The position numbers were made by a program, and so were the translations under genes. Below, one piece after another: positions 41,263 to 64,000 of a stretch of DNA of 64,000 bases. Source of the stretch: Sulfurimonas sp. HSL1-2 (lineage in GTDB: Bacteria; Campylobacterota; Campylobacteria; Campylobacterales; Sulfurimonadaceae); the NCBI RefSeq assembly GCF_039645565.1, contig NZ_CP147914.1, positions 2,105,573 through 2,169,572 on the forward strand, in the 5' to 3' direction. The notes beneath the pieces are model-generated. The model ran no database searches. It saw nothing but the letters and a program-made list of their open reading frames with translations, and was not told the origin of the DNA. Position 1 is the stretch's first letter, and every line of letters starts with the position of its first letter.

Positions 41263-41556
41263 TTATTTCCCGACCATGTCAGCAATCGACTGAATATCTG
41301 CATCCGAAAGGCTTGCTACCTGACCTTTCATCATCGCTTTCATCGGGCCGCCGTAACTGCCATCTTTATATCCGCTCAACGCTGTGACAATCTCTGCTTT
41401 TGTCATCGTATTGATCACCTTGCTTTTACCGAGCGCCGACTTTTCTCCGGTTGTACCGTGGCATGCCGAACATTTTTTATAAGCAGCAGCACCGTCGGCA
41501 GACAATGAACATGTCAAGCCAAACGTCACTACCAATGCCGTTACGAGTTTTGTCAT
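41263..41556 (-). CDS. Periplasmic cytochrome c, c553-like
   Basis: 97 residues from ATG 41556 (AAGGAGA six bases upstream). Signal peptide about 1-20 (cut after LSA), heme site CSACH (Cys29, Cys32, His33), and probable axial Met in GGPMKAMMKGQV. Size and motifs fit class I cytochromes of the c553 type that shuttle electrons between periplasmic complexes. The frame is open 16 codons further upstream without a ribosome site. First gene after a strong class II Crp/Fnr-type promoter; porin follows. Confidence 0.88.
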   Translation of the reverse strand: MTKLVTALVVTFGLTCSLSADGAAAYKKCSACHGTTGEKSALGKSKVINTMTKAEIVTALSGYKDGSYGGPMKAMMKGQVASLSDADIQSIADMVGK

Positions 41557-41586
41557 AATCTTCTCCTTGAATATACGGTTATGAAG

Positions 41587-41629
41587 ATTATAAGAAAACA
41601 ACAAGGGCGTCGTCTTTGACCTAGGTCAA
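41587..41629 (-). promoter_or_regulatory. Crp/Fnr-type operator and -10 upstream of cytochrome c-porin
   Basis: Operator TTGACCTAGGTCAA at 41616-41629 is a perfect 14-bp palindrome. TATAAT lies on the minus strand at 41587-41592. Centre-to-centre distance is 33 bp, which places the operator near -42, the class II activator position. The start codon is about 66 bases from the operator centre. Confidence 0.85.
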
Positions 41630-44065: not shown

Positions 44066-44692
44066 TTATTGCACCCCTACGTTAAGGACATCAAGCAGAT
44101 CGGACTTGTTCTTCATCGTCTCATCCTGATAATCGGGTTTGAACGTGTTGGCAACTGCCGGCGCGATATTCGCCTGCGGCGCATGGCATTGGGAGCAGTT
44201 AAAGCGGCCTTGGTAAAGGTGATCAGATTTCTTTACGATCATTTTGAAATCACCTGTATTGTCAACCTCTTTCCCCTCTTTTGTGATCTTGCCGTCGGCG
44301 GCCAACGATGTATCGGGCCGGAAGTTGGCAAAGTGTGAAGCCGGAATTGGCGTTGCCCCCATCGCCTCTGCGATATCCGGCATATGACAGCCGAGGCAGG
44401 CATTGTTCTCCTTGGTAATCGGCAGAAGGCCCTCAACGTCATGCGGGATCATCGGCGGCGCGTTGTCGTAGGCGCGCTGAATCCGCTGTGACGTTCCAGG
44501 AGCCTCCGCGGAATAATCCGCCATCGCCGGTTTCGTTCCCTGCTCCGTATAGAGATCAGTCTTCCGAAGCCCCAGGGACTCTTCCGATACCGTCGGTTTC
44601 ACTTCGGCTGTCTTCGCCGGCTCCACACTATTGCTGCATCCAATCATCAGCAGAGCAGCTGCAATGCCGCCCGTTATCACTCTCATTTTCAT
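44066..44692 (-). CDS. napB: NapB diheme cytochrome c subunit of nitrate reductase
   Basis: 208 residues, with two heme sites CLGCH (Cys99/102, His103) and CSQCH (Cys166/169, His170). It passes electrons from the quinol-side proteins to NapA. The leader ends LLMIGCSNS with Cys19, which looks like a lipoprotein signal rather than a plain Sec leader, so NapB may be membrane-anchored. Overlaps napH by 4 bp. Confidence 0.94.
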   Translation of the reverse strand: MKMRVITGGIAAALLMIGCSNSVEPAKTAEVKPTVSEESLGLRKTDLYTEQGTKPAMADYSAEAPGTSQRIQRAYDNAPPMIPHDVEGLLPITKENNACLGCHMPDIAEAMGATPIPASHFANFRPDTSLAADGKITKEGKEVDNTGDFKMIVKKSDHLYQGRFNCSQCHAPQANIAPAVANTFKPDYQDETMKNKSDLLDVLNVGVQ

Positions 44693-45498
44693 GACTTCTC
44701 CTTTGCTTGTTTCGCAAGCTTGCGAATTGAAAAGTTCAGTGCATCATCCTCACAGACTTCAACACACCTTCCGCAGTTTGTACACTCACCCATCACTACA
44801 CTTTCGCTGCTTCTCGCAACCATATGCAGCACCTCTTTTTCAGGGCATATCTCTTTGCACTTCATACAGGCCGTACACTTCTCCGCGTCATGGAAGACCC
44901 GGATCAGAGAGAAACGACTGATCAGCGAATAAAACCCGCCCAGCGGGCAGATATGACCGCACCATCCGTGTTCATGGACGAACAGGTCGAACAGAAAGAT
45001 CACCAGAAGTGCTGCACCGCCGAACCCCATACCGAACACGATGCCGCGATGCGCCATCGAGATCGGACTGATCATTTCAAACGCTGCAACGCCTGTCAGC
45101 GCAGAGAGTATCAGGGAAATCCCGAGTACCCAATAACGCATGTTCCGGCTCATATAAACCCGCTTCTGCACCTGGGATATCCCCAGTTTTCTCCGTGTCC
45201 AGTTGGCCGCGTCCGTGACCATATTGACCGGACAGACCCAGCTGCAAAAAGCCCGTCCGCCGATCACGGCGTAAAAAACAAAAATGATCACCGCTCCGAT
45301 GAGTACGGTCGTTGAAAGCGCCGCACCCGCCGAGAGCATCTGCAATACCGCGAACGGATCGGAAAGCGGCACACGCTGAAGCAGCAGTGACGCACTCAGA
45401 TTTCCCTGCAGGATTGCCGTGTATCCGTACCAGTTGGCCGCACCGTAAAGCGTCAGCAGACCGACCTGGAGCATCCGGCGCAAAATCAGATATTTCAT
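44689..45498 (-). CDS. napH: NapH membrane ferredoxin
   Basis: 269 residues with four to five transmembrane helices and C-terminal cytoplasmic [4Fe-4S] sites (CTACMKCKEICPE and CTNCGRCVEVC). The membrane part has FCSWVCPVNMVTD and HGWCGHICPLGGFY loops. NapGH forms the quinol dehydrogenase for Nap where NapC is missing, and no napC is present here. Overlaps napG and napB by 4 bp. Confidence 0.94.
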   Translation of the reverse strand: MKYLILRRMLQVGLLTLYGAANWYGYTAILQGNLSASLLLQRVPLSDPFAVLQMLSAGAALSTTVLIGAVIIFVFYAVIGGRAFCSWVCPVNMVTDAANWTRRKLGISQVQKRVYMSRNMRYWVLGISLILSALTGVAAFEMISPISMAHRGIVFGMGFGGAALLVIFLFDLFVHEHGWCGHICPLGGFYSLISRFSLIRVFHDAEKCTACMKCKEICPEKEVLHMVARSSESVVMGECTNCGRCVEVCEDDALNFSIRKLAKQAKEKS

Positions 45499-46298
45499 TC
45501 GAGCAGATCCCCCATATCGTTCAGCGAATCGATCGCTTTTTCCTGACTGCGTTCCGTTACCGTCGTGCCGCCTTTAGCCGATTTGACGCGTTCCTGGTCC
45601 TTTTTATCCCAGCCTTTGACGTAATGACTGCCGGCATGTCCTTCGACAACACCTCTCGGTAGGATGGTAATCGCCGCCTTTTCCGTAACGCAGGCATGTT
45701 CGCACATCCCGCAGCCTGTACAGACGTCTGGGACAACAACCGGTTTTAAATAGGCATGTTTCCCCGTCCGTTCATTTTGCTCATATTCCAGCTTTATGGC
45801 CTGGTCCATTAATGGACAGGCCCGATAGCAGGCATCGCACTGGATTCCCCAGAAGGCGATGCAGGCCTTCGGATCGACGATGGCAACCCCGATGTCGATC
45901 TTCTTGATGTCCCAGAACATCTCTCCCTCGAAGTCACTTTGAACTTTGTTTGCGTCCAGCGCGCCCGTGGGACAGACCGGGACACAGGGGATGTCTTCAC
46001 ACATATAGCAGGGGATCTCCCTAGGGGTGAAAAACGGTGTTCCCATCGGTAATGTATCACCGGGAGCTGCCAGCTTGAGCGTATCGTAAGGACACCCCTC
46101 GACACAGAGGCCGCATTTGATACAGGACTTCAAAAAGTCGGCTTCATTCTGCGCGCCGGGAGGACGCAGCACCAGCGGTGCCGCTTTGACTTCTTCCACA
46201 TAAGCAGTCCATACCAATGCACCCATCGCGCTGAGGCCTACACCCCGCGCCATGGTCAGAAGAAATTTACGACGGTCGCTCAGCTGTTCGTTTTTCAT
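45495..46298 (-). CDS. napG: NapG periplasmic ferredoxin
   Basis: 267 residues from ATG 46298. Twin-arginine leader (DRRKFLLTMARG, Arg9-Arg10), then four [4Fe-4S] motifs, for example CIKCGLCVEGCPYD, CYMCEDIPCVPVCP, CDACYRACP and CTGCGMCEHAC. Acts with NapH. The 38 further open codons upstream are the out-of-frame end of napA. Confidence 0.94.
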   Translation of the reverse strand: MKNEQLSDRRKFLLTMARGVGLSAMGALVWTAYVEEVKAAPLVLRPPGAQNEADFLKSCIKCGLCVEGCPYDTLKLAAPGDTLPMGTPFFTPREIPCYMCEDIPCVPVCPTGALDANKVQSDFEGEMFWDIKKIDIGVAIVDPKACIAFWGIQCDACYRACPLMDQAIKLEYEQNERTGKHAYLKPVVVPDVCTGCGMCEHACVTEKAAITILPRGVVEGHAGSHYVKGWDKKDQERVKSAKGGTTVTERSQEKAIDSLNDMGDLLE

Positions 46299-46308
46299 TG
46301 CTCTCTCG

Positions 46309-49122
46309 TTATGCTTTCGTGATCTTGACCGCGCATTTCTTGAAGTCTGTCTGTTTTGACATCGGACACGTCGCATCCAGACAGACTTTATTGATGAAGA
46401 CCTTTTCATCAAACCACGGTACGAACACCAGGCCTTCCGGCGGACGGTTACGGCCGCGCGTCTCTACGCGGGCCTTCACCGAACCGCGACGCGATTCGAC
46501 GTTGACAAGTTCGCCGCGCTGTACACCGCGTTTCTTGGCGTCATTCGGATGCATGTAACAAAGCGCTTCCGGTACCGCACGGTACAGTTCCGGTACACGC
46601 ATCGTCATCGTACCGGAGTGCCAGTGCTCGAGCACACGGCCGGTTGCCAGCCAGACATCGTATTCGCTGTCCGGCATTTCCGGTGGATCCATGTAAGGAC
46701 GGGCAAAGATTTTTGCCTTGTTCTCAAGGCTTTTTTTCTCCGCGACTTTGACGCCGCCCAGGTCGCCGTATGGCAGCGCCTTCGCCAGCTTTCCGTAGAA
46801 CGCGTGCGTGCTGTCCGAACCGGACTTGGCGACCGCTTTGGCCGCATATGGATCGTATTTGACATTGAAGCGCCACTGCGTCTCTTTCCCGTCGACGACC
46901 GGCCATTTCAGGCCGCGGACCTTATGATAGACATCAAACGGTGCCAGGTCGTGGCCGTGCCCGCGTCCGAAGTCCGCATACTCTTCAAACAGGTATTTCT
47001 GAATGAAGAATCCGTAGCCCTTGAAGACCTCTCCGTCGGAACCGACAACGTTCCGGCTGTCACCCAGACACTCAGAGTTGTCGAAACCGGCCTGAACTGG
47101 GTCTTTGTCATCCAGTTTGTATGAACGGGCCTTGTCATTCGCAAACAGGATGTCGAACATCGTCGTATCTTCGTTATAGCCCATTTTTTTGGCTTCCGCG
47201 ATGACATCAGGCATTTTCGTGCCATCACGCAGCGTCGATGCGCCCCAGAGATCTTTGACGGTGAACCGTTTGGAGAGTTCGACCCACTGCCAGGTGTCGG
47301 ACATCGCATCGCCGACCGGGAGCACCTGCTGACGCCAGTGCTGTGTCCGGCGTTCGGCGTTACCATACGCCCCCCATTTCTCGTAAATCATCGCCGAAGG
47401 GAGGATCAGGTCCGAGACCTTCGCTGAAATACCCGGATAGCCGTCGGATGTCACGATGAAGTTGTCCATTTCGCGTGCGGCCTTGATCCAGTGTTTCGCA
47501 CTGGCGGAATCCTGATAAGCATTACAGACGCTGACCCACGCGAATTTGACGATACCATCCTCGATATCGCGGTGGATTTTCATGATGTGCTGGTTCCCGA
47601 CCGGGTTGAGCGTCCCTTCCGGAATCATCCATTTATGCTCGGCGATCTTGCGGTGCGCCGGATTGGCGACCATCATATCCGCCGGTAAACGGTGACAGAA
47701 TGTTCCGACTTCACGCGCCGTGCCACACGCTGAAGGCTGGCCCGTCAGCGAGAAAGCGCCGCTGCCCGGTAACGCCTGCTTGTTCAACAGGAAGTGGACG
47801 TTATACGAAAGCGTGTTATCCCAGGTACCGCGCGTATGCTGATTCATCCCCATCGTCCAGAAAGAGACGACTTTGCGCCCTTTCTCAATGTAGAGATCTG
47901 CCAGCGCCTTGAGTTTACCTTTGAAGGCCTCGAGATCCTCATTCGGGTCACCCTTGACAATCTTCGCAGTGTAGTCAAGTGTATACGGCGCGAGGGATTT
48001 CTTGTATTCTTCAAACGAGATCTCCCAGTGTGCCAGGGTACCGGGCTGATTATTCATAACTTCGCCCTCTTTATAGCCGTAAGGCTCCAGGGCCGGTGCT
48101 TCCTTGGCAGAGACGGGTTTGCTCATCTCTTTTGAAATCGTCTCCATCTCAAGATCGGTGTATTTGCCCTCTTTGACCGATTTCTCGTCACTGCGGCGCA
48201 TACCGTAGCCGATGTTAACCGGACCTGTCGCAAAAATGATATTCTGTTTGACGAAGTCCCAGTCAATCGCTTCGGGATGGTTGTAAACGATCTCGTGTGC
48301 AATGTAGTTCCACAATGCAAGGTCCGTGTTTGGCGAGAAAATAATCTCGATATCCGCCAAGTCGGATGTTCTGTGCGTGTAGGTCTGAATGGAAACAACC
48401 TTGACACGGTCGGGATCGGAGAGCTTGCGGTCTGTGACACGCGACCAGAGGATCGGGTGCATTTCCGCCATGTTCGACCCCCAGGCTACGACAGTGTCCG
48501 TCAATTCGATATCGTCATAACAGCCCGACGGTTCATCGATGCCGAACGTCTGGTAAAAGCCGACGACGGCCGATGCCATACAGTGGCGGGCATTCGGATC
48601 GATCGCATTGGAACGGAATCCCGCCTTCATCATTTTCTGTGCCGCATACCCTTCCATGACTGTGTACTGCCCGGAAGCGAAGTTGGCAACGCCTTCCGGG
48701 CCGCTGTGCGCAAGGGCTTTGCGGATATTTTTTTCCATTTCATCAAAGGCGCGCTGCCAGCTGACCGGCGCGAACTTGCCGTGCTTGTCGAACTCCCCCT
48801 TGCTGTTGATGCGCAACAGCGGTTGCGTCAGACGGTCGGCACCGTACATGATCTTCGCGTTGAAATACCCTTTAATACAGTTCAACCCGCGATTGACAGG
48901 TGCCGCGGGGTCTCCTTTGACCGCGACGATCCTCCCGTTCTTGGTCGCGAGCATGATCCCGCATCCCGTACCGCAGAAACGACATGCCGCCTTGTCCCAG
49001 CGCCAGTCTTTCTGGGCATCTGTCCCCGCGGCCTCGACATCTGTCGGAATCGTCATTCCAATCGCGCTCGCTGCCGAAGCGGCCGCTGCACTCTTGAGAA
49101 AACTTCTTCTGTCCATACCCAT
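46309..49122 (-). CDS. napA: Periplasmic nitrate reductase catalytic subunit NapA
   Basis: Reduces nitrate to nitrite using bis-MGD molybdenum and one [4Fe-4S]. Full length at 937 residues. Tat leader with DRRSFLKS (residues 4-11); cluster ligands Cys47, 50, 54 and 82; molybdenum ligand Cys181 in [10 protein letters not shown]. The campylobacterial type has longer insertions than the enterobacterial enzyme, as here. ATG 49122 has AAGGAGG just upstream. First gene of the operon A-G-H-B-F-L-D plus a PAS gene, and preceded by a Crp/Fnr-type promoter. Confidence 0.97.
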
Positions 49123-49258: not shown

Positions 49259-50626
49259 TCACCCACGCGGTTTTGGTTCTGTTTTGGTGACGATGCTGTT
49301 GAGGTTTTCTTGCAGTTTTGTCAACAGTCTTGATGTGCCGGAGAGCTCTTCAAGCGTCTGGATGACGATATCTTCACTTTTATCTATTGTACGATCAATA
49401 TCTTTTTTGGATGCCTCATCTATCCCTAATCCCTCAAACTCCTCATCCATAGTTTCAGTGACAGTGGCCAATTCATTAGCAGCCTGTTCGGACTCATGGA
49501 TCGCCTGCTGGGCATGCTGAAGTATCGTGTTGATCTTGTCCACAAAATGACTCATATGCATCGATGCCTGAGAAAGCTCATCGGTCTGGACCGTCTCCAT
49601 TGTCGGTTCGTACCGTACCGTCTCTTCTGAAAGCTTCAACGAATCCGCCATCGACCTGGAACGGTCAAGGAAAAGCTCGAAGTCTCCCTGGATCCTTCGT
49701 GTCAGATACACGGCATACACCATAAAAAGCAAAGCGATCAAGCTTGCGGCATATTGGAAATATTGTAAAAAGGCACGCTGCTCTTCCGAATAGGCACTGT
49801 AGGCTGCTACCGCAGAGTCCATAGTCTCAAGCAAAACAACATTAAGTTCCTTGATATGCAGCACGGCTTCATTGAGCTGCTTCTGCTTTTCCATCAGTTC
49901 AAACATATAGGTGGAATATTTCTGCCACTGTTTATCATTTTCAATCAGCAGTTGATGCAGGTCAGGCCGCTGGTACCAGACCCGGTTCTCCTCAAACCGC
50001 TTGAGCGTGGCACCGTAGAGCCCGTACGCCTTCTGGAACTGCGTAAAATAGTTGGCATCTCCTGTGATCAGATACTGTGTCGCACTGAAACCGATACGCT
50101 GTGTCAGCATGCGCTGTCGCCCCGCATCGTCAATGACCGCTCCTTCAAGCCCTTCAACGACCATCTGCTTTACCACCCGGTCCGAGATCATCAAGATCGC
50201 CTCGTTTTCAGAAGGGAGCGACTCTTTCAGTTTGTTCGTCTCCGCCAGAAGCTCTTGGAATCGGACTACATGATCATCAAATGTTTTCCAAAGTGAAGAG
50301 ACCTGCAAAAGCCTTTCCGTAATGCACTGCTTGGGTGGTGCATATATCCCTCGTTCCGGGGCGCCGTTCATGAGATCTTCCAGGCTTGCATCGAACTCGG
50401 CACGAGCAGTATCAAGCGCTTTAAAGTTTCCCTCGTTACGGTTTTGGAGCCATAGCACCTCTTTGGCGATCTGCTGCGTCAGCATCCGTTGCTTACCCGC
50501 GATATTGATCACCACGGAGTCCTGTTTTGATGCGTGGTTGATATACACAGTGATACCGACAATTGAGGCGATGATCAGCGAGAGCATGCCGCCGATCAGT
50601 TTGATTTTGGATGTAATGGTTCTCAT
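49259..50626 (-). CDS. PilJ/NarX-type membrane sensor without recognised output domain
   Basis: 455 residues: a transmembrane segment at about 9-28, a periplasmic region with two copies of the nitrate-sensor P-box-like motif (NIAGKQRMLTQQIAKE near 40-55; DDAGRQRMLTQRIGFSAT near 166-183), a second membrane segment near 288-306, and about 150 cytoplasmic residues that look like coiled coil. No histidine-kinase, GGDEF, or chemoreceptor hairpin tip is visible. ATG 50626 has AGAGG six bases upstream. It follows the Crp/Fnr gene by 12 bp and leads into the nap operon. Confidence 0.75.
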   Translation of the reverse strand: MRTITSKIKLIGGMLSLIIASIVGITVYINHASKQDSVVINIAGKQRMLTQQIAKEVLWLQNRNEGNFKALDTARAEFDASLEDLMNGAPERGIYAPPKQCITERLLQVSSLWKTFDDHVVRFQELLAETNKLKESLPSENEAILMISDRVVKQMVVEGLEGAVIDDAGRQRMLTQRIGFSATQYLITGDANYFTQFQKAYGLYGATLKRFEENRVWYQRPDLHQLLIENDKQWQKYSTYMFELMEKQKQLNEAVLHIKELNVVLLETMDSAVAAYSAYSEEQRAFLQYFQYAASLIALLFMVYAVYLTRRIQGDFELFLDRSRSMADSLKLSEETVRYEPTMETVQTDELSQASMHMSHFVDKINTILQHAQQAIHESEQAANELATVTETMDEEFEGLGIDEASKKDIDRTIDKSEDIVIQTLEELSGTSRLLTKLQENLNSIVTKTEPKPRG

Positions 50627-50638
50627 CACGATCCTCTC

Positions 50639-51295
50639 TTATTCAAAAATTTCCCGCAATGTTGCTTCATCTTTCAAAACTGTTTCACCGTCAACAGTAT
50701 CGATCATGCCACTGCGTGTCAGTTTTTTCAGAATGCGTGAAAGTGTTTCAGGCTGAATATTCAGCATATAGGCTATCTCCTGCTTCTTGAGCTGGTTGAA
50801 ACTCCGAAGATCGTTGATCAGCATAAAGGCGACTTTCGCCGTGCCGTCAAACACGATCTCCCGGTTGATGATGCATTGCATCATTTTACTCTTCTTGGCG
50901 AACTCTTTCAGCAGTTTCAACATCAGGTTTGGACTGTTCATATACATCTGCTGAAAATGCTCAAAGTCGATAACCAGTACATCACTGTCAATGGCGAATT
51001 CCGCATTGGCAAAGCACCCGATACGGTCGAAATCAGTGATCTCTGATATCAGCGTATCGCTGAAAAGGTTGTACATGAACACTTCATTGTCGAACCTGTC
51101 TACCTTGTAGATCTTGATCAGCCCCTCTTTCAGATAGTAGATCTCATTGTGCTTCTCTTTTTCATAATAGAGAATCGCGCCCTTCGGGTATTTGCGCAGC
51201 GACACAATCTTTATGAGCTCCGCCAGCTCCTCTTGTGACAAGTCCGAGAATAAAGGAATGGTCTTTAGATATTCCTCCGTGACACGCTTGGTCAT
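50639..51295 (-). CDS. Crp/Fnr-family transcription regulator (nap/moa-linked)
   Basis: 218 residues from ATG 51295: cyclic-nucleotide-binding-like N-terminal domain, dimer helix near 115-145, and winged HTH with recognition helix IQPETLSRILKKLTRSG. The E-x-x-S-R set (Glu, Ser, Arg) is the FNR/CRP pattern that reads TTGA half-sites, matching the TTGAC palindromes found nearby. It has no N-terminal cysteine cluster, so it is not an oxygen-labile FNR; NO or heme sensing as in Dnr/NssR is possible. Upstream divergent from moaA with a shared operator. Two hidden cysteines (FANA region and KMMQC) have no obvious cluster spacing. Confidence 0.88.
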   Translation of the reverse strand: MTKRVTEEYLKTIPLFSDLSQEELAELIKIVSLRKYPKGAILYYEKEKHNEIYYLKEGLIKIYKVDRFDNEVFMYNLFSDTLISEITDFDRIGCFANAEFAIDSDVLVIDFEHFQQMYMNSPNLMLKLLKEFAKKSKMMQCIINREIVFDGTAKVAFMLINDLRSFNQLKKQEIAYMLNIQPETLSRILKKLTRSGMIDTVDGETVLKDEATLREIFE

Positions 51296-51438: not shown

Positions 51439-52404
51439 ATGCTGCGCGACCAATTCGGCAGAGACGTGACCTATCTGAGAGTCTCGGTCACCGAACGGTG
51501 TAATTTCCGCTGCCAGTACTGCATGCCCGAAAAACCTTTCAGCTGGGTTCCCCGTGAAAATTTGCTCAGCTATGAAGAGCTCTACTCGTTTATACGCATC
51601 GGGATCGACCAAGGGATCACGAAAATACGTTTAACGGGGGGCGAACCTTTGACACGTGACGATCTGGACCACCTGATCGCCATGATCATCGAGTATGCAC
51701 CAGATGTCGATATCGGGCTCACTACCAACGGTTACCTACTGGAACCGATGGTTGAACGGCTCAGCAATGCAGGATTGAAACGGATCAATGTTTCCCTCGA
51801 TTCCATGCAAAAAGAGACATTGCATGCCATTACAAAAAAAGATGTTTTAGACAAAGTCAAGGCTGGGATTGAAGCCGCTGTACAAGCAGGCCTGAAAGTC
51901 AAGATCAACAGTGTCATCATGAAAAAGGTAAACGAGGATGAAGTCATTGCCCTTTTCGAATATGCCAAAGGGCTTGGGGCGCAAATCCGTTTCATCGAAT
52001 ACATGGAGAACAGTTTTGCCAGCAGCCATGTGCAGGGGCTGACAAGTGATGAGATTCTGGACATTCTGGGTAAGCATGTCAGTTTCAGCCCCGTGCTGAT
52101 CGGCAGTGATGGTCCGGCGACACTCTATGAATGCACAGACGGGTGCCGTTTTGGAACGATCGAACCGCATAAACACGATTTTTGTGCCACTTGCAACCGC
52201 ATCAGACTCACTGCGGAAGGCGATCTCATTCCCTGCCTGTACTTCGATGAGGCCATGAGTGTCAAAGATGCTTTGCGTGAAAATGATCTTGATCAGGCTG
52301 AACAGGTGTTGAGAACCGTCGTCTTCAACAAACCCGAAAAAAACCGCTGGAACGCCAATGACTCCGAAGTCTCGACGCGGGCGTTCTACCAGACGGGTGG
52401 ATAA
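51439..52404 (+). CDS. moaA: GTP 3',8-cyclase MoaA (molybdenum cofactor)
   Basis: Radical SAM enzyme that starts molybdopterin synthesis from GTP. 321 residues from ATG 51439 (AAGGA eight bases upstream). N-terminal cluster Cys21/25/28 (CNFRCQYC), then RLTGGEPLTR; C-terminal cluster in DFCATCNRIRLTAEG with the final Cys in LIPCLYFD. The longer open frame upstream passes through the promoter. Leads a moaA - FmdE-like - moaD - moaE set that would supply cofactor to NapA. Confidence 0.96.
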   Translation: MLRDQFGRDVTYLRVSVTERCNFRCQYCMPEKPFSWVPRENLLSYEELYSFIRIGIDQGITKIRLTGGEPLTRDDLDHLIAMIIEYAPDVDIGLTTNGYLLEPMVERLSNAGLKRINVSLDSMQKETLHAITKKDVLDKVKAGIEAAVQAGLKVKINSVIMKKVNEDEVIALFEYAKGLGAQIRFIEYMENSFASSHVQGLTSDEILDILGKHVSFSPVLIGSDGPATLYECTDGCRFGTIEPHKHDFCATCNRIRLTAEGDLIPCLYFDEAMSVKDALRENDLDQAEQVLRTVVFNKPEKNRWNANDSEVSTRAFYQTGG

Positions 52405-52416
52405 AGGCTCACCGAC

Positions 52417-53022
52417 ATGAATTACCCGACTTTTTTCGACCAGGCACCTACGATCACCCTTTATGATCCCCTCGCCGACCTGCTGGGTGCGATTGGTGAC
52501 GGGATCATCACCTACAGCTACCTCGATGCCGTCAAGCTCGCCGGCCACTCCTGTCCGACAGTTGCCGGCGCGTATCTGATGGCGCTCAAAGGCATCGATG
52601 CCCTCTACCCGGACAGTGTCCCGCAACGGGGAGATATTGCTGTCACTATCCGGGGCAGCCGCGAGGAGGGAACAAATGGCGTCATCGGGAATGTTCTAGG
52701 ACTCATCACCGGTGCAGCAGGTGACGAAGGATTCAAAGGGTTGCAGGGCAACTTTGCACGAAACGCACTTCTACACTTTCACCGTGTGCTGCCGGAACCA
52801 GTCATGATGACATGCAAGAGAACGGGAGACACAATCTATTTAAACTATAACCCTTCAGCCGCACCAACTGCGCAGATTCCCCCGGAACTGATGAAGGCTG
52901 TCGCCATGGGCACATCTTCTTTTGAAGAGAAGAAAGCATTCGGCCGCCTTTGGCAGCAGAACGTTGCGGCTATCCTTGCAGACCGGTCAAACCCCGATTT
53001 GATCACCATACATAAGGAGTAG
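52417..53022 (+). CDS. FmdE-like protein inside the moa operon
   Basis: 201 residues. The segment VKLAGHSCPTVAGAYLMA (His44, Cys46) resembles the metal-site motif of the FmdE family, named from formylmethanofuran dehydrogenase operons; the rest is a mixed alpha/beta single domain with no leader. No methanogenesis genes are here. The gene lies 12 bp after moaA and 4 bp before moaD, so a role in molybdenum cofactor or metal handling is the best inference; it might bind heme or metal. Assignment is by motif only. Confidence 0.6.
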   Translation: MNYPTFFDQAPTITLYDPLADLLGAIGDGIITYSYLDAVKLAGHSCPTVAGAYLMALKGIDALYPDSVPQRGDIAVTIRGSREEGTNGVIGNVLGLITGAAGDEGFKGLQGNFARNALLHFHRVLPEPVMMTCKRTGDTIYLNYNPSAAPTAQIPPELMKAVAMGTSSFEEKKAFGRLWQQNVAAILADRSNPDLITIHKE

Positions 53023-53026
53023 CTGA

Positions 53027-53248
53027 ATGATTACCGTACATTGTCTGGGCCCAATAGGCAATCTTGTCCTTGAAATAAAAGCTGCGAACCTGGCTGAAGT
53101 CGCAGACCAGATACGTTTGAACGAAACGATACGTCCTTGGCTGGAAACGTGTGCCGTTGCCATCAACGATACACTGGTTACCGCTTTGGACATGCCGCTG
53201 AAAGACGGGGACAGGGTCTCGCTGCTTCCGCCGGTATGCGGAGGCTGA
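53027..53248 (+). CDS. moaD: Molybdopterin synthase small subunit MoaD
   Basis: 73-residue beta-grasp protein ending in the required Gly-Gly (LLPPVCGG), which is thiocarboxylated and gives sulfur to the pterin. LKDGDRVSLLPPV is typical of MoaD/ThiS. moaE follows after 2 bp. Confidence 0.92.
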   Translation: MITVHCLGPIGNLVLEIKAANLAEVADQIRLNETIRPWLETCAVAINDTLVTALDMPLKDGDRVSLLPPVCGG

Positions 53249-53250
53249 AG

Positions 53251-53688
53251 ATGCTGGAAATCCATCACGGACCACTAAACGTCCCGCTCATCCTCAAACG
53301 CTGGTATGAGGAAGAATCCCTTAAAAACTATGGGGCCTTTATCCCCTTTATCGGCACAGTCAGAGAAGAAAACGGCGTTGACGGCCTGAGCTTTGACATC
53401 TATGATCCGCTCCTGAACCGGTGGTTCACCGAATGGCAGCAAAGAGCGAAAACGAAAGATGCCCTCGTGAAAATGGCGCACAGCCGTGGCGATGTTCCCG
53501 TACACACGTCGTCTTATATTGCTGCCGTTTTCTCACCGAAGCGCCGGACAGCACTCGAAATGATTGAAACATTTGTCGAAAGCTTCAAGGCTAGCGCCCC
53601 TATCTGGAAATATGATCTCGTCAATGGGCGGCGCATCTATGCCGCCGACCGCTCCGCACCAATTGAGGGCAGTGGAATACTCGTCTAG
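53251..53688 (+). CDS. moaE: Molybdopterin synthase large subunit MoaE
   Basis: 145 residues from ATG 53251, with GGAGG six bases upstream that overlaps the end of moaD. Conserved parts: GAFIPFIGTVRE, SRGDVPVHTSSYIAAVFSPKRRTAL and SAPIWKYDLVNGRR, which carry the catalytic Lys and substrate-binding Arg/His. Forms molybdopterin synthase with MoaD. Its last four bases overlap the convergent cytochrome gene. Confidence 0.93.
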   Translation: MLEIHHGPLNVPLILKRWYEEESLKNYGAFIPFIGTVREENGVDGLSFDIYDPLLNRWFTEWQQRAKTKDALVKMAHSRGDVPVHTSSYIAAVFSPKRRTALEMIETFVESFKASAPIWKYDLVNGRRIYAADRSAPIEGSGILV

Positions 53689-61680: not shown

Positions 61681-62292
61681 ATGAACCCATTAAGATCACT
61701 GCCACTTTTTGAAGATCTCAACGAGGAGACCTTCTCAAAACTGACCGAAATCGCAAGACAATGTAGATTCCGAAAGGGGGAAATACTCTTTTTTGAAGGA
61801 GACGCTCCGAATGATCTGGTGGTCCTGACCAAGGGAATCCTGAAGCTTTTCAAAACCTCCAGCAGCGACAAAGAGATCATCCTTCATCATTTTACGCCCG
61901 TCTCATTGGTGGCAGAAGTCGCCGTGCTGCATCGCATCCCCTACCCGGCCACCGCCGTGTTCGAAGCCGACAGCGAGGTGCTCTTGATCAACTACGACGC
62001 TTTCGAGTCAATGTTTCTCAGCAATCAGGAACTTGCCCGTGTTCTTCTGCTTTCACTTAGTAAGAAAATACGTATGCTTGAATCAGTCATTGAACGTGGC
62101 CTGGTCATGGACGCATCCGAACGCGTTATCAACTTTATCCGGAAATCTCCTGAGCTGCTTAAAACAATGCGTCATTACGAAATTGCGAATATTCTGAACC
62201 TGACACCGGAGACCTTCTCGCGAACACTCAAAAAGTTGCAGCATGAAGGTAAAGTCGTCAACAGTGTGGAGGGGTGGGAGGTTCTCCCATAG
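61681..62292 (+). CDS. Crp/Fnr-family regulator, NssR-like, next to cgb
   Basis: 203 residues: cNMP-binding-like beta barrel (about 20-120), dimer helix, and HTH with TPETFSRTLKKLQ (Glu, Ser, Arg in FNR positions). No FNR cysteine cluster. It is convergent with the single-domain globin gene and near norB; in Campylobacter the Crp/Fnr protein NssR controls the Cgb globin on nitrosative stress, so a similar role is a good inference, but the sequence does not prove it. Confidence 0.85.
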   Translation: MNPLRSLPLFEDLNEETFSKLTEIARQCRFRKGEILFFEGDAPNDLVVLTKGILKLFKTSSSDKEIILHHFTPVSLVAEVAVLHRIPYPATAVFEADSEVLLINYDAFESMFLSNQELARVLLLSLSKKIRMLESVIERGLVMDASERVINFIRKSPELLKTMRHYEIANILNLTPETFSRTLKKLQHEGKVVNSVEGWEVLP

Positions 62293-62303
62293 AAGACACT
62301 CCT

Positions 62304-62732
62304 TTACGCCGCAGCGTAAAGCTCCTTTTCGCGGGCGATCAGCAAATCGCCCAAATAGAAATATGCCTCTTTCCAAGCTGTAAGCACCTCGTCGGTAGCA
62401 GCATCACCAAGTACATCCTTTACGGCGCCCAGCAGTGAAACACCGACCATCGGATAATGTTCCGGCTTCACACCGGTACGCACATGCGCCTGCGCCATCT
62501 TATCCAGTGCATCACCCAGGATATCGAGGCGCTCGATATTGGCGGCATATGCGCCAACTGCCGCCGCCAGTTTTTTGTGCTGATCAGGAGAAGCATCGCT
62601 AAACAGTGCTTTCGTCTCCGGATGGGACTCAAATAAGATCTCGTACATTCTCGCCGTAATCGCCTCTGCATTTTCTGCGACCGGTTTTGCGGTTGCTTTT
62701 ACAATCTCAATTGTCTCTTTTGATAGACTCAT
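62304..62732 (-). CDS. cgb: Single-domain globin, Cgb type
   Basis: 142 residues from ATG 62732 (AAAGGA seven bases upstream). Myoglobin-like fold related to Campylobacter Cgb and Vitreoscilla hemoglobin: probable B10 Tyr30, E7 Gln51 and proximal His83 in AHVRTGVKPEHYPMVG. Cgb proteins turn NO and O2 into nitrate. It lies between an NssR-like regulator and norB, giving an NO-defence context. The stop is 12 bp from the convergent regulator's stop. Confidence 0.93.
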   Translation of the reverse strand: MSLSKETIEIVKATAKPVAENAEAITARMYEILFESHPETKALFSDASPDQHKKLAAAVGAYAANIERLDILGDALDKMAQAHVRTGVKPEHYPMVGVSLLGAVKDVLGDAATDEVLTAWKEAYFYLGDLLIAREKELYAAA

Positions 62733-62826
62733 GTCAAATCCTTTATATGTCAAAATGTAGCATCGATGTTTGATGATTTTATCAGTGATGGCTGTATTTT
62801 TGTGCAATAAAATTGTATATATTTTA

Positions 62827-62954
62827 TGCTATAATCTTAATATTTTCTTAAAAAATGCCAAGGGAAAGCCTGGCGCGAATGTCAGTTGTTGAAGTTAAAA
62901 AATGATGGGCACCGTCCGACAGATAAGCATTTAACTGCAAGGGGCCTAGCCCCT
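62827..62954 (+). other. Plus-strand extended -10 promoter and hairpin between cgb and norB
   Basis: The 213-bp gap contains TGC-TATAAT (extended -10, 62827-62835) reading toward norB on the antisense strand, followed by an interrupted stem AGTTAA...TTAACT. A hairpin AGGGGC-CTA-GCCCCT (62940-62954) overlaps the norB stop codon and probably is the norB terminator on the minus strand. A short antisense or regulatory RNA is possible. No ORF of note. Confidence 0.4.
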
Positions 62955-64000
62955 ATGCAGCACCTTGCTGAAATAGATTTTTCTCGTTGTATCATAGAGA
63001 ATGACCAATCCTCCAAGTATCATCGTACCGTCTGGAAGAATGCGGAACCACATCCATCCGCTGAGCGCCTCTATCGTTTCACGGCTGCGTGCTGCGTAAT
63101 AACCAAATTCATGTGCAGTTGACGTCTGTTCAAATCCTATGATCAATGTCGGCAGCGCATAAAGCACCACCCCGACGGTCAACAGCCAAAATCCCCAAAG
63201 GCTAGGCCGATCATCCCATTCAAGATTCTTTGCCAGTGCATTGGCGCGTGCCGTCATATAGATAAACGCTATCGCTATGTATCCGAAGGCCCCGAGCAGT
63301 GCCACATGCCCATGCGGCATGATCAAGTAGGTGCCGTGAGAGTAATAGCTGATTGTGGGCGTATTGATGACCATACCCAAAAAGCCAGCACCAAACCAGT
63401 TTAGAAATGCCGAACCCGCAAGCCACAGGAATGGTACATTGAAGACGAATTCCTTTCCAAGGCTCTTAATATGACTACGCTCTTTGATTGCCTCAATCAT
63501 CAGAAGCGCTAGCGGCAGCGGCTCCATCGCCGAAAAGATGCCCCCTACAGCAATCCAGTATTCGTCAAGTCCCTGCCACCAGTAGTGATGTCCGACCCCG
63601 AGCGTACCGCTCATCATAATCAGTCCAAGCTCAAAAAGCATCACGCGTTCTGCCGTACGTTTCGAAACCAGCCCAAGCGCTACGGTCAAGAATGCCAACA
63701 CACCCGCTGCGAAGAGTTCAAATGTCAATTCTACCCAGAGGTGAACAACCCACCATCGGTAATAATCGTCAACAGTGTAGTTAGGCATGATATCTGTTAA
63801 TGGCATCATCCCCGCGATATAAAGTGTTGCAATTCCGAAAGCCGACCAGATAATGGTTCCGACCAACAAATTATTTTTACGGGCCTTGCGAACAGTAGAG
63901 TAGACCATACCGAACCAAAGTACGAGACCGATAACAAGTCCGATATCCCAGACCCGTCCCAAATTAAGTAGCTCTCGCCCTTCGTTTCCGAACCAGAACC
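62946..64000 (-). CDS. norB: Quinol-type nitric oxide reductase NorB (5' end outside window)
   Basis: The visible 351 residues are the C-terminal part of a heme-copper-family NO reductase that reduces NO to N2O. Conserved stretches: GNEGRELLNLGRVWDIG at the window edge (qNOR-like), YRWWVVHLWVEL, GVGHHYWWQG with the tandem His, GTYLIMPHGHVALLGAFGY, and further helices. The lead-in and helix order fit the single-subunit quinol enzyme (qNOR) better than cytochrome-type NorBC. The gene begins beyond base 64000. Confidence 0.9.
   Translation of the reverse strand, partial: FWFGNEGRELLNLGRVWDIGLVIGLVLWFGMVYSTVRKARKNNLLVGTIIWSAFGIATLYIAGMMPLTDIMPNYTVDDYYRWWVVHLWVELTFELFAAGVLAFLTVALGLVSKRTAERVMLFELGLIMMSGTLGVGHHYWWQGLDEYWIAVGGIFSAMEPLPLALLMIEAIKERSHIKSLGKEFVFNVPFLWLAGSAFLNWFGAGFLGMVINTPTISYYSHGTYLIMPHGHVALLGAFGYIAIAFIYMTARANALAKNLEWDDRPSLWGFWLLTVGVVLYALPTLIIGFEQTSTAHEFGYYAARSRETIEALSGWMWFRILPDGTMILGGLVILYDTTRKIYFSKVLHRG

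Follow-up and report, generated by a model that had tools for sequence, protein, structure and literature searches.

What does an FmdE-like gene do inside a run of molybdopterin genes? The window, that is the whole 64,000-nucleotide stretch of Sulfurimonas sp. HSL1-2 DNA analyzed here, carries such a gene between moaA and moaD (Table 1). The original prediction described an FmdE-like protein with a metal motif, inserted in the molybdopterin operon and made with the moa genes, which might assist the synthesis of molybdenum cofactor (Moco) or the delivery of metal to the periplasmic nitrate reductase Nap. We arrive at a different role: with moderate confidence, we judge the product to be a small soluble protein of the FmdE fold, belonging to a distinct subfamily, that acts as an accessory member of the gene set for nitrate and nitric oxide (NO) respiration.

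Table 1. Positions of the FmdE-like gene, its neighbors and the promoter boxes in the window
Feature	Position	Strand	Remarks
Small cytochrome c-like gene	41263-41604	-	Named by reading
Box TTGACCTAGGTCAA	41616..41629		Upstream of small cytochrome c-like gene
napB	44066-44692	-	Name assigned from gene order, by comparison with the annotated nap cluster of Sulfuricurvum kujiense
napH	44689-45498	-	Named as napB
napG	45495-46412	-	Named as napB
napA, periplasmic nitrate reductase	46309..49122	-	
Box TTGACCTAAGTCAA	49227..49240		Upstream of napA
PilJ/NIT-type sensor protein	49259..50629	-	
Crp/Fnr-family regulator	50639..51295	-	Divergent from moaA-FmdE unit; ORF listed to 51334, ATG taken at 51295
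HcpR/DNR/FNR-type box TTGACCTCGGTCAA	51365..51378		Starts 74 bp before moaA start
moaA (GTP 3',8-cyclase)	51439..52404	+	ATG taken at 51439; ORF listed from 51301; NCBIfam 346.7 bits, above cut-off
FmdE-fold protein gene	52417..53022	+	201 aa, ATG start; GHSCPT = residues 43-48
moaD-like (ThiS family, Gly-Gly end)	53027..53248	+	Passes Pfam ThiS; below NCBIfam moaD cut-off
moaE-like	53251..53688	+	Pfam MoaE 48.3 bits; ORF listed from 53137
Second Crp/Fnr-like regulator	61681..62292	+	Named by reading sequence
Single-domain globin	62304..62807	-	
NorB-type nitric oxide reductase, C-terminal part	62946..64000	-	Extends beyond window end

The gaps that separate the gene from the end of moaA and the start of moaD are 12 bp and 4 bp, respectively, which confirms its predicted position, and co-transcription with moaA, moaD and moaE is plausible in the window. 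The GC content of these four genes (0.50-0.55) was nothing distinctive, and inspection of the protein sequence revealed no apparent signal peptide. The predicted His-x-Cys motif, GHSCP, was found at residues 43-47. An alignment of the window protein with 139 relatives from Campylobacterota (140 sequences) showed residues H44, C46, R71, G105, F106 and G108 to be invariant; the motif is therefore not a chance occurrence, as both its His and its Cys are kept in every sequence. The subfamily signature reads (A/C)GHSCP[T/V]...GF.G, and position 42, an Ala in the window protein, is occupied by Cys in the copies from Neisseria and Paracoccus. As to the genes around it, the moaE-like protein is divergent and scores far under the NCBIfam cut-offs, and a second moaA is present elsewhere in the source genome. 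The NorB-type nitric oxide reductase is complete, at 746 aa, at L277:2019-4259 of the source genome, which also has, just beyond the window, genes for an Rrf2 regulator, a 12-TM protein, two proteins with hemerythrin domains and a ribonucleotide reductase of class II. The ribonucleotide reductase gene, assigned by Pfam (L277:7319-9337), follows the hemerythrins and has an FNR-type box upstream; a second ribonucleotide-reductase-like ORF, recognized by reading (L277:10723-12717), also lies after them.

By sequence, the relationship to FmdE (PF02663) was marginal. The Pfam FmdE profile matched the window protein at E = 0.061 with 13.8 bits, below the gathering cut-off of 22.9, and the protein alone gave no Pfam or NCBIfam match at E <= 0.001 and no PDB match at E <= 10. 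An HMM of 41 sequences retrieved no FmdE structure from the PDB, its sole match being a chance one (E 1.2), and a phmmer search with L031, a canonical FmdE relative, gave no match in the PDB at E <= 0.1. Comparison of the subfamily with L031 in hhalign gave a weak match in which the two GHxC motifs were aligned (probability 27%, E 7e-4). Among the genomes of relatives, 11 of 41 also had an above-cut-off Pfam FmdE match, and one of these (L031) carries the canonical AHGHLC motif. The AlphaFold model, computed from the alignment of 41 sequences, had a mean pLDDT of 97.1, and crystal structures of three FmdE proteins were its only clear structural matches: 2glz (Z 11.7; 3.8 Å over 138 residues), 2gvi (Z 10.8) and 3d00 (Z 10.6), the next match being at Z 5.0; structures of the FmdE fold have release dates from 2006. 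The designation FmdE-like thus holds for the fold, whereas the sequence falls short of the family cut-off.

The window protein shares with FmdE an alpha+beta core fold over 130-144 residues (Z 10.6-11.7 for the model) and the His-x-Cys of the FHGHxC motif. As given in the available part of PMC2954224, the metal ligands of 2glz and 2gvi are the His, His and Cys of FHGHxC together with a distant Cys (Cys55 of 2glz). In the window protein, however, the first of these His residues is Ala42, the motif reading LAGHSC, and Cys55 corresponds by motif spacing to Thr86, a position at which no Cys is conserved; the conserved columns of the alignment contain no Cys other than C46. Two of the four ligands, His44 and Cys46, are thus kept, so that the predicted FmdE-like metal motif amounts to half of the FmdE site, and metal binding is uncertain because the other two are absent. 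The protein also differs from FmdE in that its sequence reads without a C-terminal treble-clef zinc finger, a domain that the same part of PMC2954224 describes as optional and present in two-domain members only, and in that no fmd operon adjoins its gene. As modeled, the window protein is an FmdE-fold relative with half a metal site and not a canonical FmdE.

We analyzed how regularly the gene is associated with moa genes. Among 397 Campylobacterota genomes, an FmdE-like relative was present in 137, including the source genome, versus moaA in 375. A moa gene lay within 6 kb of the FmdE-like gene at 4 of 140 Campylobacterota loci, representing 2 of 36 genera and all from the window's family (22 of the stretches searched were shorter than 12.4 kb owing to contig ends), at 0 of 40 control stretches (6 kb) and at 0 of 80 further GTDB loci. 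In a test set of 80 Campylobacterota genomes, 36 with and 44 without the gene and about one of each per genus, MoaA was present in 36/36 versus 40/44 (within-family permutation p 0.87). The order moaA-FmdE-moaD-moaE was matched by only one of the four moa-linked loci, from the window's own genus (G191). In S. kujiense, nap, Crp, NIT, moaA and FmdE genes follow one another on the same strand; the moaA immediately upstream of the FmdE-like gene and the moaA of the window are 66% identical. In two further genomes of genus g6 moaA lies ~3-5 kb from the FmdE-like gene. Sulfuricurvum SZUA-415, on the other hand, has window-like napA, NIT and Crp genes (89, 58 and 74% identical), next to which, beside the divergent Crp gene, lies the FmdE-like gene, and no moa gene was found in the surrounding 12.6 kb; directly 3' of this FmdE-like gene is a ribonucleotide-reductase-like ORF. 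The order napA-NIT-Crp-FmdE without moa was also seen at three g27 loci and one g29 locus. Thus, moaA is the variable part of an arrangement, nap-NIT-Crp-FmdE, that recurs without it, and as two genera share one type of moaA, either SZUA-415 may have lost this gene or the lineages around it may have gained it. The FmdE-like gene thus has moa genes as its companions in particular lineages: insertion into a molybdopterin operon describes the window and G191 and mostly not the loci elsewhere, and the idea of a general helper of Moco synthesis is not supported by these counts.

The promoter of the unit points to a different set of genes. The pattern TTGACNNNNGTCAA had 3 exact matches in the window, where 0.07 would be expected: one each ahead of napA, moaA-FmdE and the small cytochrome gene. 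Beyond the window, related boxes were found in the source genome upstream of NorB, hemerythrin and ribonucleotide reductase genes. Boxes upstream of the FmdE-like gene match the consensuses TTGACnnnnGTCAA and TTGATnnnnATCAA published for HcpR and DNR (PMC1274295, in the part available). In S. kujiense the start of the box is 68 bp upstream of moaA-FmdE, and in SZUA-415 it is 65 bp upstream of the FmdE-like gene. Leaving aside the split copy L180 and the window, the gap upstream of the gene was 80 bp or longer at 64 of 139 Campylobacterota loci. TTGA[CT]N4[AG]TCAA occurred in 32 of these 64 promoters, from 9 of 22 genera, and in 1 of the 181 promoters used as controls (p 4e-21); in this statistic the loci of one genus are not independent of each other, and simple ORF calling supplied the controls. 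Of 39 box positions, 25 have their start 62-81 bp ahead of the start codon. An upstream box of the HcpR/DNR/FNR type is thus a feature of the gene or its operon.

We also asked which respiratory enzymes accompany the gene in the 80-genome test set. NirS (PF02239) was present in 20/36 genomes with the FmdE-like gene and in 0/44 without it (Fisher 2e-9; within-family permutation p 0.0003). PF02239 takes in the d1-haem partners NirF and NirN as well, so 'NirS' here stands for the cd1 system. One-sided within-family permutation, as used throughout for these enzymes, gave p 0.025 for NosZ (19/36 versus 5/44), p 0.0001 for NapA (34/36 versus 26/44) and p 0.23 for NrfA (7/36 versus 21/44). In the window's family, NapA was found in 6/6 tested genomes with the gene and in 0/6 tested without it. 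By the PF02239 test, 16 of the 36 genomes with the gene have no NirS, among them the source genome, in which profile searches detected NapA and NorB and no match for NirS, NosZ or NrfA; a genome of the same genus without the FmdE-like gene (G288) has neither NapA nor NorB.

A second test in the order of Eoetvoesiella, where 41 of 260 genomes carry the gene, compared 40 of the 41 (the truncated copy of G686 was dropped) with 37 of the 219 genomes without it, taken in order of handle; beyond the first 20 of the latter, absence of the gene was inferred from their not being among the matches. NorB was present in 33/40 genomes with the gene versus 12/37 without it (p 9e-6), and NapA in 20/40 versus 5/37. 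Furthermore, NorB occurs without NapA in 16 of the 40 gene-bearing genomes, and 7 of the 40 gave no NorB match. The gene thus co-occurs with enzymes that produce or reduce NO, NirS and NorB. As 12 of the 37 genomes without it have NorB, it is not required for NO reduction, and its absence from many NorB-bearing genomes indicates that it is helpful rather than essential. For Nap, the predicted link persists as an association, most clearly in the window's family; a role confined to Nap is weakened by the 26 NapA-bearing test genomes that lack the gene and by the NorB-bearing genomes without NapA. A protein that helps Moco synthesis or brings cofactor or metal to Nap would fit the place between moaA and moaD in the window's genus, the moaA-FmdE company common to two genera, the nearby moaA of the two other g6 genomes and the frequency of NapA among genomes with the gene, but the rarity of moa neighbors, the far wider occurrence of moaA, the moa-free nap locus of SZUA-415 and the half of the Eoetvoesiella-order genomes with the gene that have no NapA make this explanation quite improbable.

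We then examined what else lies within 6 kb of the gene. Recurrent neighbors at the 140 Campylobacterota loci were DUF2249 (41 loci), DUF59 (FeS_assembly_P; 25), hemerythrin (21), the 12-TM family (21), the DrpB-like DUF1858 (14), NapA (13) and NIT/PilJ (9). With thresholds chosen gene by gene, any nap or N-oxide accessory gene was scored at 47/140 loci, from 19 of 36 genera, versus 3/40 control stretches. Counting against an N-oxide reading, no scored N-oxide gene was found within 6 kb at the remaining 93/140 loci, including all 31 loci of the Sulfurimonas-like genus and all 15 of genus g28, where the FmdE-like gene stands among genes read as housekeeping or unrelated. Of the further GTDB loci, 38/60 outside the other groups had a scored neighbor (8 of these 60 overlap the 140), whereas only 3/20 from the other groups did, which again counts against the N-oxide reading; NirS was present in 12/20 genomes of the latter. 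Two candidate assignments were rejected: the g28 NIT-GGDEF cluster as a nitrate sensor, since a search with the NIT domain matched it at 1/140 loci versus 2/40 controls, and the 12-TM neighbor as 'NnrS-like', since its profile matches a Thermus 12-TM protein and not the annotated Paracoccus NnrS. No Pfam match was obtained for the two 12-TM members scanned (L277:4834-6168 and L047:4739-6001). Together with the co-occurrence and the promoter box, these neighbors make it well supported, at the level of sequence, that the FmdE-like gene belongs to a predicted N-oxide regulon and not to cofactor synthesis.

Outside the Campylobacterota, some of the neighbors lean toward metals. In all four Azospirillum regions read, an FmdE-hemerythrin pair has nirK upstream, directly in three and after insertion-sequence genes in one. 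In two Paracoccus regions an Rrf2 regulator gene is followed by the FmdE-like gene and a DUF1971 gene; the annotated region reads Rrf2-FmdE-DUF1971-ABC-NnrS, with the NnrS gene five genes downstream of the FmdE-like gene and TonB receptor and ABC genes near it. In Neisseria the gene lies between those for a FecCD permease and an ABC ATPase, in an ABC gene set of the iron-siderophore type. In 6/6 haloarchaeal regions read, genes for an HMA protein and a P-type ATPase precede the FmdE-like gene, and the neighbors are heavy-metal genes and not N-oxide genes, a further point against the N-oxide reading. The haloarchaeal plasmids L266, L267, L319, L320, L321 and L326 repeat one cassette of regulator, HMA protein, P-type ATPase and FmdE-like protein. 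Selective copper handling through this ATPase was considered and rejected, its motif being CPG and not CPC in the three copies checked. The Neisseria, Paracoccus and haloarchaeal settings, and the report that most PF02663 genes adjoin metal transporters (PMC2954224, in the part available), would suit a general metallochaperone or metal buffer whose N-oxide link is secondary to the greater need of denitrifiers for iron and copper. Within the Campylobacterota, however, both the HcpR/DNR/FNR-type boxes and the within-family NirS association tie the gene to N-oxides, and we consider general metal homeostasis improbable.

How might an accessory protein of nitrate and NO respiration act? The moaA-FmdE-moaD-moaE unit would be made from a promoter with an HcpR/DNR/FNR-type box like that of nap, in a putative island with nap, the globin and the NorB-type NO reductase, and its moa companions would probably raise the supply of cofactor for Nap. 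The FmdE-like protein itself may help to supply or repair metal centers while NO is being made, its invariant His44/Cys46 pair in the FmdE groove either binding a metal, iron or copper, or performing thiol chemistry. We favor metal or thiol handling under NO because a conserved His-x-Cys lies in the FmdE cleft and because the gene adjoins those for di-iron hemerythrins, for an Fe-S assembly factor and for transporters of metals; between the two, a metal is favored since the haloarchaeal copies sit in heavy-metal cassettes. A broader proposal, which we regard as possible and hold only tentatively, is that the GHSCPT subfamily, whose haloarchaeal kin belong to heavy-metal cassettes, is an undescribed accessory factor of denitrification and NO defense in both Campylobacterota and Pseudomonadota. 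Its soluble protein would withdraw metal from NO-damaged iron or copper centers, or give it back to them, by means of the two residues, His and Cys, that remain of the FmdE metal site.

Relatives of the protein are widely distributed. A scan of GTDB genomes matched at least 592 stretches, 591 of them encoding relatives, and MAGs and isolates titled as betaproteobacterial were among the 80 loci taken from these. Of 72,556 records in a plasmid collection, 38 carried a relative, including records from Paracoccus, Azospirillum, Neisseria, S. kujiense and haloarchaea; two N. gonorrhoeae records of ~2.17 Mb filed there as plasmids (L265; H1, H2) look like mislabeled chromosomes. In a tree of 72 rows, mostly one or two per genus and with one g6 copy from the S. 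kujiense plasmid, the window, SZUA-415 and g6 copies grouped with Pseudomonadota copies (14 rows, support 96/95), and the Sulfurimonas-like copies of the window's family stood apart from the window copy. This grouping suggests horizontal transfer. Relatives in two MAGs labeled Ichthyobacteriaceae and Bacteroidales (L208, L211) are 48% identical to the Campylobacterota query, possibly through misbinning or transfer. Three relatives, L180 (G056), L007 (G364) and L143 (G380), contain an internal stop or are split in two, and the gene may therefore be decaying in some lineages that otherwise retain it.

The family is widespread and seems to be undescribed, and it travels with genes for breathing nitrate, coping with NO or handling metals in bacteria and some archaea. 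The literature searched assigned no role to the GHSCPT subfamily, and among the open-licence papers searched, none of those listed linked FmdE-like proteins to N-oxides. With the tie to an N-oxide regulon, the physiology of the subfamily becomes testable in denitrifiers that can be cultured, and the protein becomes a candidate part of the hemerythrin, DUF2249, DUF1858, DUF59 and 12-TM gene set, whose biochemistry is mostly unknown.

Two known systems offer a comparison. The first is the HcpR/DNR regulon, whose box the gene shares, although no FmdE-like member is named for it in the available part of PMC1274295. The second is the accessory module of nitrate respiration in Thermus, which, as described in the available part of PMC6282519, comprises DrpA, DrpB, a protoglobin, a 12-TM protein and a DUF59 protein, with DrpA and DrpB as proposed nitrate sensors. 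This module raises the alternative that the FmdE-like protein, with no action at metal centers, is a sensor or signaling partner of DUF2249/DUF1858 (DrpA/DrpB-like) proteins and of Crp and NIT regulators. In several genera the gene does adjoin DrpB-like, DUF2249, NIT and Crp genes, and the neighboring DUF1858 protein matches Thermus DrpB; yet no DNA-binding or signaling domain was found in the FmdE-like protein, its neighbors in Neisseria, Paracoccus and haloarchaea are others, and the 12.4 kb nar-drp stretch of Thermus has no annotated FmdE-like gene. We therefore regard a signaling role as unlikely. What the gene has in common with the Thermus module is its company: in Campylobacterota it adjoins genes for homologues of DrpB (DUF1858), of the 384-aa 12-TM protein that the Thermus nitrate cluster encodes and of the cluster's DUF59 protein.
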